A stretch of 49,228 bases of DNA. It comes from Candidatus Daviesbacteria bacterium (GTDB taxonomy: Bacteria; Patescibacteriota; Microgenomatia; Daviesbacterales; UBA10151). The translations under genes and the position numbers were made by a program. The stretch covers positions 100,937 to 150,164 of the forward strand of contig JAUYKM010000011.1 in assembly GCA_030699125.1 (NCBI GenBank). The letters are read 5' to 3'. The notes under the pieces were generated by a model. The model saw only the letters and a program-made list of their open reading frames with translations, was not told the DNA's origin and did no database searches. Positions 20,400 through 40,924 of this stretch are shown in pieces (positions within the stretch are counted from its first letter, which is position 1; each line of letters opens with the position of its first letter).

Positions 20400-20438
20400 A
20401 GTAATTACATTGTACTCACGTATAAAAAGAATGTCAAG

Positions 20439-20511
20439 TCCATGGGGTAGGAGTCGAACCTACTTGGCACAGATTTACAGTCTGTTGCATAAACCGTTCT
20501 GCCACCCATGG
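20439..20511 (-). tRNA. tRNA-Tyr(GTA), class I (short variable loop), C1-G72, A73, no encoded CCA
   Basis: CCATGGG TG GCA-GAACGGTTTA-TGC A ACAGA-CTGTAAA-TCTGT GCCAA GTAGG-TTCGACT-CCTAC CCCATGG A. Confidence 0.92.
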
Positions 20512-20519
20512 TAAAGTTA

Positions 20520-20990
20520 TTATAAGGTATTTTTTCCTCTATATCCAAAAGTATTTGTCTGAGAATGACAATTTGGACACAAGAATCTTAGATTTTCTAT
20601 TCGATTATCTTCACTATTACCGTCAATATGATCAATTTCTAAGTTAAGCTTAATATCTTTCCATTTATTAATACCGCAAATTAAGCATTCATATTCAACC
20701 CCTGACTCCAGCAATGCCCTTCTTAAATGGAATGATTTTTGTCTTTGACCAATGATAAAGATCTGTGCAGGCAGTTTCTTCTTATTTGAAGGAATTCCCA
20801 GCATATGTCTGTATCCTAAGAAATGACTACTATCAATACCAAACTTTTGAATCATTTTTTTAATGTGCCGATGTTGGTTGCCGCTTACTGGTTTACCTAG
20901 AATTATTCTTGCTACTCCTTGGACTGAGATGGACTTTGAGACAGCATCTTCCAATTTTTCCTTTGTATATTTATAAGCTGAACCCTGCAT
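20520..20990 (-). CDS. HNH endonuclease family protein
   Basis: YECLICGINKWKDIKLNLEIDHIDGNSEDNRIENLRFLCPNCHSQTNTF. Confidence 0.8.
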   Translation of the reverse strand: MQGSAYKYTKEKLEDAVSKSISVQGVARIILGKPVSGNQHRHIKKMIQKFGIDSSHFLGYRHMLGIPSNKKKLPAQIFIIGQRQKSFHLRRALLESGVEYECLICGINKWKDIKLNLEIDHIDGNSEDNRIENLRFLCPNCHSQTNTFGYRGKNTL

Positions 20991-36600: not shown

Positions 36601-38211
36601 TCAAGAATTTGTTAGAATATGGAGGGCAGATATGCCGAAGTGGCGGAATGGCAGACGCGTAGGCCTCAGAAGCTTATCCCAGCAATGGGGTGGAGGTTCG
36701 ACTCCTCTCTTCGGCACTGAAAGGGAGTTTTGAAGGGAGCCAGAAGGTTGGCTCTGCGCGGGGGTAGGCGCGCAGAGCTCTGCAAAGCCCTTTTTGAAGG
36801 TCGGGACGAGCCGCCGATTAGTTAAAAAGAAGTTCGAGCCGACAGTTTTTGCTCCGATTGCTAAATCGGAGCATGTATTTTTTGCGCGCGCGATTTTTGC
36901 GCACGATAGTGCGCTACCAATGAAGTTTTTGAAAGGTTCAATCCAGTATGAACCGTTGTCCCCAATTTTCTCAATTTCCTCATTTATTTTTAATTTCTCT
37001 TCAAAAAATTCGTTCTTTTTATTTCTGTAAGTCTCAGCATCAATTACTTGATCTAAGTAACTGTCCAAAAGCAGGTTTAACCTTTTATCAAGGTTTTCCA
37101 GCTCGAGATTTAATTTCTTTATGTTTTCTTCTGTTGATTGCTTTTCCAGAATTTCATCTGCTTCAAGCCACTTATACCAATCTTTAGCCCAGCTTTGGGG
37201 TAAGGCTACATCATCAATAACTTTTCTTATTTGTAGTTCTAATTCGGGTTCAGTAATTGGTTTTTGAGAACAAGGCTTTAATTTTTTAGTACAACGATAG
37301 TAATTGTAGGTAACATTTCTATTTGTGCCCTTGTAATATTTGGTATGTGTTTCAGCTGTGATAGAGGCTCCACATTCGCCACATTTTATTAGGCCAGTAA
37401 AAGCAAACTCATGTTTTCTTTTTCTCGGTTTTATAATCTGATCTATTCTTTTTTGTACAGCGTCAAAAATTTCTTTTGAGATAAATGTTTTATGCTTTCC
37501 TTCGTAATATTCACCCGCATATTTCATAATGCCAATGTAAAATCTATTAGAGAGCATTTCTTTGACGTAATCAATTTTTACTGGTCTATTTTTCCTTGTT
37601 GTAAAACCAAACTTGTGTAGAAACAGACAAATATCTGTAAAAGTTTTATTGCCTTCTGCAAAAAGTTGAAAGGCTTTCTTTATTGCTTTTGATTTTACAG
37701 GGTCAACTTCAATAGTTCGAAGTTTGGGTTCATTAAAATATCCCCAAGGTGCTTTATTAGGATAAACTCCATTTCTTAACTTCTGCCTATTCCCACGCTT
37801 TACATTCTCACTTAAATTGTCTACATAATACTTAGATTGTCCAAAAGCAATTGATAACATAAATTTCCCCTGGGGAGTACTTTCAAACCAAAAGGAGGGA
37901 AATTTTAAGTCCAGAAGTTTTCCAGTATCAAGTAAGTAGATAACTTTTCCACCATCAATAGAATTTCTGGCTAAACGATCGGGATGCCAACTCAAAATTC
38001 CAGAGGCTTCTCCTGCTTCAATCTTTTTGAGGACTTGAGCAAATACTTGCCTGCCGGGGACTTTAGCCGTTTTTGCCTCACTAACAAACTCTACAACTTC
38101 TAAATGTTCCCTTTGAGCAAATTCCTTTAGTTCTGCAATTTGAGCCTCAATGGACAAAACCTGTTTATCTTTTTCGTCTGTACTTTTTCTGCAATATGCA
38201 ATGTATTTCAT
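36601..38211 (-). CDS. Large serine recombinase (true C-terminus uncertain)
   Basis: YIAYCRKSTDEKDKQVLSIEAQIAEL, SWHPDRLARNSIDGGKVI, APWGYFNE, KCGECGASITAETH zinc ribbon, coiled coil. The last ~100 aa are read through hairpins, the inverted repeat and the antisense of tRNA-Leu. Confidence 0.92.
   Translation of the reverse strand: MKYIAYCRKSTDEKDKQVLSIEAQIAELKEFAQREHLEVVEFVSEAKTAKVPGRQVFAQVLKKIEAGEASGILSWHPDRLARNSIDGGKVIYLLDTGKLLDLKFPSFWFESTPQGKFMLSIAFGQSKYYVDNLSENVKRGNRQKLRNGVYPNKAPWGYFNEPKLRTIEVDPVKSKAIKKAFQLFAEGNKTFTDICLFLHKFGFTTRKNRPVKIDYVKEMLSNRFYIGIMKYAGEYYEGKHKTFISKEIFDAVQKRIDQIIKPRKRKHEFAFTGLIKCGECGASITAETHTKYYKGTNRNVTYNYYRCTKKLKPCSQKPITEPELELQIRKVIDDVALPQSWAKDWYKWLEADEILEKQSTEENIKKLNLELENLDKRLNLLLDSYLDQVIDAETYRNKKNEFFEEKLKINEEIEKIGDNGSYWIEPFKNFIGSALSCAKIARAKNTCSDLAIGAKTVGSNFFLTNRRLVPTFKKGFAELCAPTPAQSQPSGSLQNSLSVPKRGVEPPPHCWDKLLRPTRLPFRHFGISALHILTNS
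36634..36716 (+). tRNA. tRNA-Leu(CAG)
   Basis: GCCGAAGTGGCGGAATGGCAGACGCG TAGGC-CTCAGAA-GCTTA ... GTGGAGGTTCGACTCCTCTCTTCGGCA. Confidence 0.93.
36714..36816. repeat. 103-bp inverted repeat, left copy
   Basis: gcactgaaagggagttttgaaggg...gaaggtcgggacgagccgccg; reverse complement of 38329-38431 with one mismatch. Confidence 0.95.
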
Positions 38212-38328
38212 AGCAGTTTTTTTTATTCTCCCTATAAGTAAATGTTCTTTTGCGAGCGAAGCGAGCAGGATTTCTTCTTAAGAAATCCAAAATTTTTGCG
38301 TGCCTTCGTTTTTTGTTCTTTTTTACTC

Positions 38329-38431
38329 CGGCGGCTTGTCCCGACCTTCAAAAAGGGCTTTGCAGAGCTCTGCGCGCCTACCCCCGCGCAGAGCCAACCT
38401 TCTGGCTCCCTTCAAAACTCCCTTTCAGTGC
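38329..38431. repeat. 103-bp inverted repeat, right copy
   Basis: cggcggcttgtcccgaccttcaaaaaggg...cctttcagtgc. Confidence 0.95.
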
Positions 38432-38470
38432 GCGCTTATGAAAAAATCCGAACCTCTTTTCGCCAAAGGT

Positions 38471-38691
38471 AGGCGGCGCGCCCCTTCCCGCGCCGCCCTC
38501 TATCCGCTCGGCCTTCGGCCGAAGCTCTAAAAAATGTCGGCTCGAACGGGTTGCTTCAGCAACCCCAAAAAACGCAAAAATTTTAAAGAACTTTTCTTAT
38601 CCTAAAATTCAAATGGCCGCTCTGGTGTAGTCAAATCCTTGCGAATCTGTCCAAAGCGACCATTAAAAAACGCAAGGAAAAATTTGACTAC
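38471..38691. repeat. Array of hairpins downstream of the right inverted repeat
   Basis: GGCGGCGCG..CGCGCCGCC; CGGCCTTCGGCCG; GGGTTGCTTCAGCAACCC; GTAGTCAAATCCTTGCG..CGCAAGG..ATTTGACTAC. Confidence 0.8.
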
Positions 38692-38783
38692 AAAAATAAT
38701 GTATCAATTATTGAGAAAATTTGCAACCATAAAAATGTTTAGGCATTTGCAATTTACTCTTAAATTTGAAATACTGTTAGTAC

Positions 38784-39932
38784 ATGGAAAGCATTCAAGA
38801 ACAAGTAAATACAGATGCTGATATTAAACAGGATTCTCCTCCTGTTAATCCAATTTCAAATCAAAAAGGAAATTTTCTACTTATAATCGGGCTGGTAGTA
38901 TTAGTGCTTGTAGTGGGTGCGGGTGGATATTTTCTTTATCAAAAACAGGTTAATAAACCAGTTACTACTCCACAGACATCTCAAGTTACACCCTCTCCGA
39001 TTCCTGACGAAACAGCCAATTGGAAAACATATTCTAATTCCTCTCTAGGTTTTTCTTTTTCGTATCCGATGATTCTTGACCATCTGTATGATCAGTTTGG
39101 GTTCAATCACCCGGATAACCCTGAAGGTAATCTATTGCTCCAGAACTTTGATGGATCAAAGCCAAGACAAGACCAACCAACAGATTTTCAAATGGTTGTA
39201 GAAGCATATAAGAATTCTGATCAAGTAACCTTAGATAAATACGTTAAAGATCCAAATAAAGTTTGGAATCAAAGTGGCGTCCAAATATTTGCTGATATAA
39301 CTTTAGGTAATGAACCAGCATTGAAAGGTCTAGCAATTCAGAAAAATGAAAAAGTTCCTACCATATGGGTATCTCATAAAGGGTATGTTCTTACTATTTA
39401 TCTTGAAACTCCAAAATCTACAAACGCATCTTTATTTGATCAAATCCTCTCCACATTTAAATTCTCAGATCAAAATCAAGCAAATGTCAATTCTTCGTGG
39501 GAAACATATAAAAATCCAAAATACGGTTTTGAATTGCAGCATCCTGTAAATAGCACTATTGAAACACGAACAAACGGCGGTGTTAATCCATACCAGTATA
39601 TTCGTATTCAAAACTATACTGACCAAGATGTAATGAAGAATAATGGAAAACTGGTAACAGGACAATACTATTTAGAAATATCTATCTATGACCATCAATT
39701 AGGACAAAAGACTGCTGAAACTTGCCCAGAAAGTTTAGCAAATCCTAAAAAAGTTGATTTAGGTGCGGGAGTAACAGCTTATCGAGGAAATGGATTAGGT
39801 GGTGGTGATTCTGCTCCCTATATTTATGCTATTTGTGCTACTAAGCCAAATGTGGATTACTACATTCAAGCAAGTGAGAACTTTGATACTGTTGCGAGTA
39901 AAATTATAGATTCCCTTAAATTCACAAATTAA
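38784..39932 (+). CDS. Membrane-anchored protein with two PsbP-like repeats
   Basis: TM LLIIGLVVLVLVVGAGGYFLY, then NWKTYSNSSLGFSFSYPM and SWETYKNPKYGFELQHPV repeats. Confidence 0.75.
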   Translation: MESIQEQVNTDADIKQDSPPVNPISNQKGNFLLIIGLVVLVLVVGAGGYFLYQKQVNKPVTTPQTSQVTPSPIPDETANWKTYSNSSLGFSFSYPMILDHLYDQFGFNHPDNPEGNLLLQNFDGSKPRQDQPTDFQMVVEAYKNSDQVTLDKYVKDPNKVWNQSGVQIFADITLGNEPALKGLAIQKNEKVPTIWVSHKGYVLTIYLETPKSTNASLFDQILSTFKFSDQNQANVNSSWETYKNPKYGFELQHPVNSTIETRTNGGVNPYQYIRIQNYTDQDVMKNNGKLVTGQYYLEISIYDHQLGQKTAETCPESLANPKKVDLGAGVTAYRGNGLGGGDSAPYIYAICATKPNVDYYIQASENFDTVASKIIDSLKFTN

Positions 39933-40924
39933 AAAGGTTTAGAAGAAATTTCTGCTAAAATAGTGGGAGTAAAAAAGTTTTCGCGCTGGGTGGGTTGGGG
40001 CAAGAAAACATTTGAGTTTCTTGTTTTACCTGTCCGCCATAGGCGGACTATAAATAAAAAAATCGCGCGCATTGCTTTTCTGTCTTAGCAAAAAATACAT
40101 AGAGCGAGGCCGAAGACTGCCGTCGACATAGCCTTTGGCGACGTACGACAAAAATGAATTGAAGCTTACTCGGGACTCAATTTGGACTCGTTTCCAACTG
40201 TCCGATTGCGCCATTAAAAAAGTAATCCGTTAAAATTGGATCCATTGATTCTTGTTACAAAATATGAGTAATTCAAATCACTAAATTTAAGAAATTTATA
40301 TTACTGAATATGAATAAATTTAAAGTTACACTTCGCATTAGTCAAAGTTGAGGCAGGTAGTTAACGAAAAGTTAAATATAGAGAAGTACATTAGGTCACA
40401 TATAAAAATATCTAACTCTTCTCTTCCTGCCCCAGCTTGGCAAAGAATATGAATACCATCCAGGTTATTTCAGAAGATTTAATTTTACCCAATAAGTTAG
40501 CCGTAGAATCACCCCTTCGGAGTAATTATCTGTGGAGAAATTTAATTATTGAAAAGCGTACTTCAATAAACTGGCTATCCAGATTATTAAAAGGTAGTCC
40601 TCTGCACGATTTTTGGTTACTTCTATCATCGCCAGTAAGCTGAAACATAAAGAAAGGGTGTAAGCGATAGACGTGGTTAAATACGAGTGATTGATTTTAA
40701 CCCCCCTCTCCATATATAATGCTCCTATAAAGTCTTCAAAAAAATGTCAATGAATACAGATAAGACAAAGGAATTTGAAAGTATTAAGAAATTAGAGCTT
40801 GAATTAGCCTCAAATCATAAAAAGTCGTAAGTAGGATCACAGAAAATTTGTTATCCCTATCACACATATATAACCAGGCACATTGCTGTGTATTTTCTTA
40901 AACTCCCATATACTTTCATTTACT

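Follow-up and report, generated by a model that had tools for sequence, protein, structure and literature searches.

The large serine recombinase gene next to tRNA-Leu(CAG) in the window, by which we mean the whole analysed stretch of 49,228 nucleotides from Candidatus Daviesbacteria, is most likely part of an integrative element, a predicted genomic island of Patescibacteria that is driven by a large serine integrase. From sequence comparisons, we show that the 103-bp inverted repeat around this gene represents the putative P' half-site at attL, next to the tRNA, and the P' half-site of a second, inverted attP (attP2). The comparisons also show that integration is predicted to remove a conserved C-terminal motif from the integrase, of which the inverted attP retains an intact copy. 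We are highly confident in this predicted anatomy (attL, attR, attP2 and a split gene), and we favor, with moderate confidence, the reading of the element as a serine "suicidal integrase" island that carries its own invertible backup copy of attP and of the gene end.

The inverted repeat at the tRNA-Leu(CAG) locus

A repeat search identified two inverted arms, 36714-36816 and 38329-38431, which are 103 nt long, 99% complementary and spaced by 1512 nt, in agreement with the near-perfect repeat described around the recombinase in the initial annotation. If one small gap is allowed, the similarity reaches 118 columns at 96%. A chance origin of the repeat is excluded, since the next-longest inverted pair within 7.5 kb is far shorter and weaker (26 nt at 77%). 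The tRNA gene was placed on the plus strand at 36634-36717 by ARAGORN and at 36634-36716 by Rfam. The left arm starts at G36714, which is nt 71 of the tRNA, and takes in tRNA nt 71-73 (GCA) and C74, so the edge of the repeat does share the terminal GCA of the tRNA, as had been noticed.

The recombinase gene is located on the minus strand between both arms, with the ATG at 38211, and its frame stays open across the whole left arm and then through the antisense strand of the tRNA to 36601. The product contains the Resolvase (PF00239), Recombinase (PF07508) and zinc-ribbon (PF13408) domains above the Pfam cut-off, and the full-length PDB relative YokA was matched over residues 4-405. The predicted element-encoded protein is a member of the large serine recombinase family. 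The features of the locus are as follows:

36634-36716, plus strand: tRNA-Leu(CAG), the integration target, with the T-loop GTTCGA as proposed attB half-site (B); from ARAGORN, Rfam and conserved geometry
36714-36717, plus strand: predicted attL core GCAC (tRNA nt 71-74), the sole stretch where attL, attP2 and attR agree
36714-36816, plus strand: left arm, putative P' half-site at attL; its minus strand encodes the C-terminal region of the recombinase
36717-38211, minus strand: large serine recombinase (integrase) gene, element-encoded part, from the frame and domain matches
36601-36713, minus strand: integrated-state tail of the recombinase frame, from antisense tRNA and host DNA
38329-38431, minus strand: right arm, putative P' half-site of the internal inverted attP (attP2)
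38428-38431, minus strand: predicted attP2 core, GCAC on the minus strand
38432-38456, minus strand: X half-site of attP2, with the T-loop mimic GGTTCGG at 38448-38454
38329-38472, plus strand: spare coding copy of the integrase C-terminus, ending in SLSVRAYEKIRTSFRQR and a stop
38529-38547, minus strand: motif Z, GTTCGAGCCGACA, common to the elements
38566-38595, minus strand: motif Y, AAAAGTTCTTTAAAATTTTTGCGTTTTTTG, common to the elements
38609-38694, minus strand: conserved covarying RNA pseudoknot, upstream of the integrase
38784-39932, plus strand: probable cargo gene for a 382-aa membrane-anchored protein, with a weak PsbP_2 match
39965-40115, plus strand: truncated right-end module; the expected attR beyond it is absent
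40155-40246, minus strand: degenerate second pseudoknot copy

The genome that contains the window (1.13 Mb, 19 contigs) encodes two further recombinases, of 65% and 71% identity and with a comparable repeat, one adjoining tRNA-Gly(CCC) on contig C8 and the other at the end of contig C17. Every arm copy detected in this genome adjoins such a recombinase gene; repeats scattered independently of the recombinase were not found. The complete copy is the element on C8, which is 9.6 kb long and has an attL at tRNA-Gly and a located attR. For the window element, no attR was found within the window, and the right-end module at 39965-40115 looks truncated. On C17, the 93 nt at 51019-51111 (G000; L016 positions 20-112) are 100% identical to the X region of the window (38432-38620) and are situated at the far end of the cargo of that other element. 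An exchange or rearrangement between the two elements is the likeliest explanation for this half-site match; the alternative reading is a mis-assembly in which contigs were mis-joined. Elsewhere in the window, a 156-aa ORF that looks like an HNH endonuclease (20438-20990) immediately precedes tRNA-Tyr, with both in the same orientation.

Distribution, targets and boundaries of the elements

The family set consisted of 94 distinct recombinase genes of at least 42% identity, with 91 loci that had flanks, and the source data were all assemblies, mostly metagenomic. An inverted repeat around the gene was scored if it covered at least 50 nt at a level of at least 80%. Relatives of the recombinase were identified at E <= 1e-60 in 145 of the 374 genomes of the class. 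Those relatives that bear a name belong to Daviesbacteria, Woesebacteria, Gottesmanbacteria, Levybacteria and other Microgenomates. The repeat was present at 76 of the 91 loci; together with the two additional copies in the window genome, this provides the further copies and the same repeat pair in relatives that the initial annotation had proposed to look for. In 67 of the 76 loci, the gene-3' arm directly adjoins the 3' end of a tRNA, and the gene-5' arm does so in none of them (0/76), which bears out the suspected mobile element aimed at tRNA genes, unusual for a serine recombinase. The recombinase is convergent with the tRNA, and the 76 loci with an inverted repeat make use of 28 isoacceptors; the suggested targeting of tRNA-Leu was thus too narrow.

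A search with each locus's own X half-site detected attR at 48 of the 69 loci having upstream sequence, 0.8-10 kb upstream of the gene and in direct orientation relative to attL. The elements are 2.3-11.6 kb long, with varied cargo. Alignments of element pairs at different tRNAs begin at the predicted core of attR, end at that of attL and scarcely extend further. Both features expected of a tRNA island are present, with attL at the 3' end of the tRNA and attR as a direct repeat of the core. Uninterrupted tRNA pairs were identified in relatives: tRNA-Leu(taa) and tRNA-Pro(tgg) are adjacent in G048 and 2.5 kb apart with an intervening element in G080, and tRNA-Leu(gag) and tRNA-Val(tac) are adjacent in G079, G064 and G385 and 2.3 kb apart in G094. 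Since these empty sites belong to other families, they show the arrangement and not a recent insertion. The search for empty targets thus succeeded at other loci only, and none was obtained for tRNA-Leu(CAG) at the window locus.

The cargo arcs of L193 (at tRNA-Ala) and L194 (at tRNA-Pro), which represent two families, are 93% identical over 5.2 kb, as compared to integrase genes that can be aligned over just 473 bp at 66%. Such shared cargo next to diverged integrases indicates that cargo and integrase modules have been exchanged. The cargo shared by these two loci includes an OLD-like ATPase and a DNA methyltransferase-like gene. Across the islands, the cargo includes cytosine methyltransferases with Vsr-like nucleases and AAA/OLD-like ATPases, and the cytosine methyltransferase and Vsr-like endonuclease genes of L201, L178 and L147 constitute restriction-modification sets. 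Tandem or nested insertions are suggested by L137, L174, L202 and L125, where attR immediately precedes a further P' arm or the cargo includes a second recombinase fragment. The smallest elements have no further ORF of at least 80 aa and no visible origin.

A conserved directionality factor (RDF) is not apparent, because each accessory gene occurs in at most 7 of the 48 elements, and the search for an RDF gene in the cargo yielded no shared candidate. A phage origin was also rejected, with just two partial matches in viral contigs. About 15 contigs terminate near attP2. An assembly artefact as a general cause was discarded on the basis of the same gene order with unique flanks in dozens of independent assemblies, and the order is the same in the single-contig genomes G094, G213, G084, G132 and G153. 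Searches of the open-access literature, with subscription papers and preprints outside their scope, returned no paper on such elements.

Attachment sites, the inverted attP and the end of the integrase gene

With tRNA nt 73 as the anchor of the comparison, the agreement between attL and attP2 begins at nt 71 (43/45, as compared to just 6/45 at nt 70), and that between attP2 and attR extends through nt 74 (44/45, as compared to 19/45 at nt 75). Because the two agreements end there, the common core corresponds to 4 bp, tRNA nt 71-74. C74 is invariant (61/61), and the remaining core bases match the tRNA, as exemplified by TCAC in Lys, Glu and Val, GCAC in Leu, CGAC in Pro, CCGC in Ser and Asp, CAGC or CAAC in Gln, CTGC or TTGC in Trp, and GCTC in Gly and Thr. 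No conserved sequence is found past the core on the host side.

Outside the gene-5' arm, nearly all loci contain X, a mimic of the tRNA T-loop (e.g., GTTCGAATTTTTTCGTAAACG). The TTC of the T-loop motif is located 19 nt from nt 73 in the tRNA and 23 or 24 nt from it in X, so that the motif in X is displaced 4-5 bp outward relative to the tRNA. With the crossover assumed at nt 72/73, the motif is situated at 12-20 in the tRNA and at 16-24 or 17-25 in X. For the Listeria integrase, the zinc-domain motif maps to 11-19 in attB and to 16-24 in attP, i.e., with a 5-bp shift (PMC3783163). Since the displacement of the T-loop motif matches this shift between attP and attB, the integrase is taken to read the tRNA T-loop, a conclusion for which the evidence is strong but indirect. 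The two features of attP and attB sites that we tested, a shared short core and a difference in half-site length, are both present.

The attP is located within the integrase gene: the frame crosses the core, and a conserved tail follows beyond it. There is no stop codon before the core in 69 of the 76 loci, and if the frame is read onward into X, as would correspond to the predicted circle or to attP2, it ends about 12 codons later with the motif [YF]-x-x-[IV]-R-T-x-F. Several codons are used for R and T in this tail, and F is encoded by TTC and TTT about equally. An X spacing of 23 goes with gene phase 1 (28 cases) and a spacing of 24 with phase 0 (22 cases), in a test of frame compensation that was anchored on the tRNA and not on the end of the repeat; at least two of the three exceptions are found in damaged frames. 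The synonymous codon variation and the tracking of the X spacing by the phase argue that the tail is conserved as protein. Given a conserved tail in the attP frame, integration would therefore replace the native C-terminus by antisense-tRNA codons.

A complete attP2 (X-core-P') is located in inverted orientation inside the element, directly upstream of the integrase gene, and its halves are repeated at the ends, P' at attL and X at attR. For the X half, this is seen as a matching inverted repeat of ~100 bp between attP2 and attR. The median identity of the P' arms is 98.5% within an element as compared to 72.5% to the nearest relative, with the within-element value being higher in 63 of 66 cases; the corresponding values for the X halves are 98.8% and 65.6% (38 of 38). 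As judged by these identities, both half-site pairs evolve in concert. The core of attP2 equals that of the current target in 62 of 62 cases.

The repeat is spread throughout the clade and is retained down to 44% protein identity, with scattered losses; L150, L181, L183 and L198 have intact frames but no repeat. Among related integrases of 25-38% identity, the repeat was found in none of 19 loci. Thirteen of these 19 loci converge on a tRNA, and the frame reads into the tRNA in 12 of the 13. Since the repeat is absent from the distant relatives and both tRNA convergence and overlap are present, the tRNA habit and the gene-end overlap probably predate the inverted attP, which is an innovation of this clade.

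In ~30 elements (the window, L124, L126, L130, L131, L141, L163 and about 25 others), an H-type pseudoknot adjoins motif Y at a distance of about 270-300 nt from attP2, on its outer side. It consists of two helices with 19 pairs, of which 12 have changed on both sides, and 99.8% of the cells are paired; the covariation is 0.542, as compared to 0.160 ± 0.016 in shuffles. A nearly invariant U-G pair argues that the pseudoknot acts as RNA rather than DNA. The number of copies per genome varies from 0 to 7, and no matching family was found in Rfam. The pseudoknot may belong to the integrase mRNA as its leader, or constitute an RNA of its own. Many copies have a TATATT-like box upstream, and the pseudoknot is located on the integrase side of the cargo arc. 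At L189, the pseudoknot end is at attR instead of attP2, and this is the only clear case of the opposite orientation of the cargo arc.

Proposed mechanism, alternative explanations and known systems

In the mechanism that we propose, the zinc-ribbon domain would read the tRNA T-loop at the attB spacing and the X mimic at the attP spacing; with the T-loop read at both spacings, tRNAs with a matching core could therefore serve as targets. The loss of the C-terminus upon integration may switch or lock the integrated state. The inverted attP would serve as a backup. Either the integrase or RecA could mediate a crossover or gene conversion involving the two P' arms, which would flip or repair the gene, rejoin its 3' end to X and restore a complete integrase; the exchange would also keep both attPs identical. 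We put the chances of such a backup or repair role of the inverted attP at somewhat below even. For the suicidal integrases, it has been proposed that the complete integrase plays the part of the directionality factor (PMC8371274). A bacterial serine "suicidal" integrase with a resurrection device, in which flipping the gene across the P' arms within the integrated element would rebuild the enzyme, the tail would replace the directionality factor and one T-loop-reading family could target nearly every tRNA gene, is a tentative idea that we consider less likely than not.

The recombinase-inverting switch suggested in the initial annotation is geometrically possible, and it is attractive because an inversion would restore the C-terminus of the integrase; the flipped gene orientation was observed at only one of the 87 loci with readable 5' context. 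This locus, L143, is located beside tRNA-Glu, on an incomplete contig that ends inside the integrase gene. Known serine integrases recombine attP with attP, or attL with other sites, poorly (PMC3783163), and an inversion made by the integrase would be unusual for this reason. No excision circle or inversion product was seen in the assemblies, which are mostly metagenomic.

Four alternative explanations have to be weighed against the island with a backup attP. A regulatory switch, in which the P' repeat mainly flips the integrase on and off and both attP2 and the spare gene end are by-products, would account for the near-identity of the inverted arms, for the flipped L143 and for the other orientation of the cargo arc in L189. 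We consider it rather unlikely, since 86 of the 87 loci are unflipped; moreover, attP2 matches attR in both its core and its X half, an identity that a simple switch has no need to maintain. That attP2 is a functionless relic of an old head-to-head insertion, kept identical by RecA gene conversion, is unlikely. Homologous recombination alone can yield concerted evolution, and the repeats are lost or decayed in some elements, but the site is kept throughout the clade down to 44% protein identity, in small genomes and with arms of about equal length everywhere, and its core follows the current target without exception.

In the predicted circle, the recombinase would occupy one of the two arcs between a pair of identical, inverted sites, which fits with an amplification of the circle copy number, in which the two attPs split the circle into a gene arc and a cargo arc and an inversion at the time of replication leads to double rolling-circle amplification. 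This is highly unlikely: the circle itself is predicted, the smallest elements lack both another ORF of at least 80 aa and a visible origin, and attP x attP recombination is inefficient in the serine integrases studied (PMC3783163). We regard as extremely unlikely a compact transposon, i.e., a 1.7-kb unit ending in the 103-bp repeats that the recombinase moves into tRNA genes. The recombinase does have a repeat on either side, and the tRNA adjoins the outer edge of one of them, yet the homology between copies runs past the right repeat to an attR of the same core, and a conserved half-site, not variable target DNA, is found outside this repeat. The transposon-like unit proposed at the outset gave way to one arm at attL and another in an internal, inverted attP, with attR 0.8-10 kb further away. 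More generally, a transposon with terminal inverted repeats is refuted by attR and by the ends of the pairwise homology; the arms are not both ends of the mobile unit.

In the yeast 2-micron plasmid, FLP inversion between inverted sites has been proposed to give double rolling-circle amplification. The 2-micron/FLP system resembles the island reading favored here in that the two recombination sites form an inverted pair and the recombinase gene adjoins one of these sites; it differs in being an autonomous plasmid with a tyrosine recombinase and no tRNA integration, whereas the circle is a prediction in our case. With the large serine integrases (Listeria A118/LI, phiC31, Bxb1, SPbeta YokA), the elements share the Resolvase, recombinase and zinc-ribbon domains, a short shared core and a difference of ~5 bp in half-site spacing between attP and attB. 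In contrast to those systems, attB is one-sided and set by the tRNA T-loop, attP is located inside the integrase frame, a second complete inverted attP is present, and no conserved RDF gene was found in the elements.

Genomic islands and IMEs that integrate into tRNA genes also have the tRNA 3' end as target, attL and attR sites and restriction-modification cargo. They usually have a tyrosine integrase and use one tRNA per integrase (PMC4383910); here, in contrast, one serine integrase family uses 28 isoacceptors. T-loop reading, with the 4-bp core setting the target, suggests how a single integrase family may use almost any tRNA gene, and such targeting matters both for the integrases used in genome engineering and for gene flow among Patescibacteria. 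In the integration-dependent immunity of mycobacteriophage BPs, attP is located inside a gene and integration alters the C-terminus of the product (PMC4557955), as is predicted here, but the affected gene is a repressor and there is no inverted second attP, whereas the gene affected here is the integrase, with such a site.

A parallel in operation is seen with the archaeal SSV-type integrases (SSV1, pTN3, pT26-2), where attP is located in the integrase gene and integration at a tRNA site disrupts the gene (PMC8371274), as is predicted for the elements described here. Those are tyrosine recombinases that are split into two large parts, as compared to a serine recombinase that loses ~12 C-terminal codons, and they differ in having no spare inverted copy of the gene end. 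The window-type integrase is thus predicted to work like an SSV-type suicidal integrase and is not a member of that group. In a review, self-gene-disrupting integrases were described as exclusively archaeal and their persistence as a paradox (PMC8371274). The elements would represent a bacterial serine-recombinase counterpart to the archaeal suicidal integrases, with an anatomical candidate answer to the persistence paradox.
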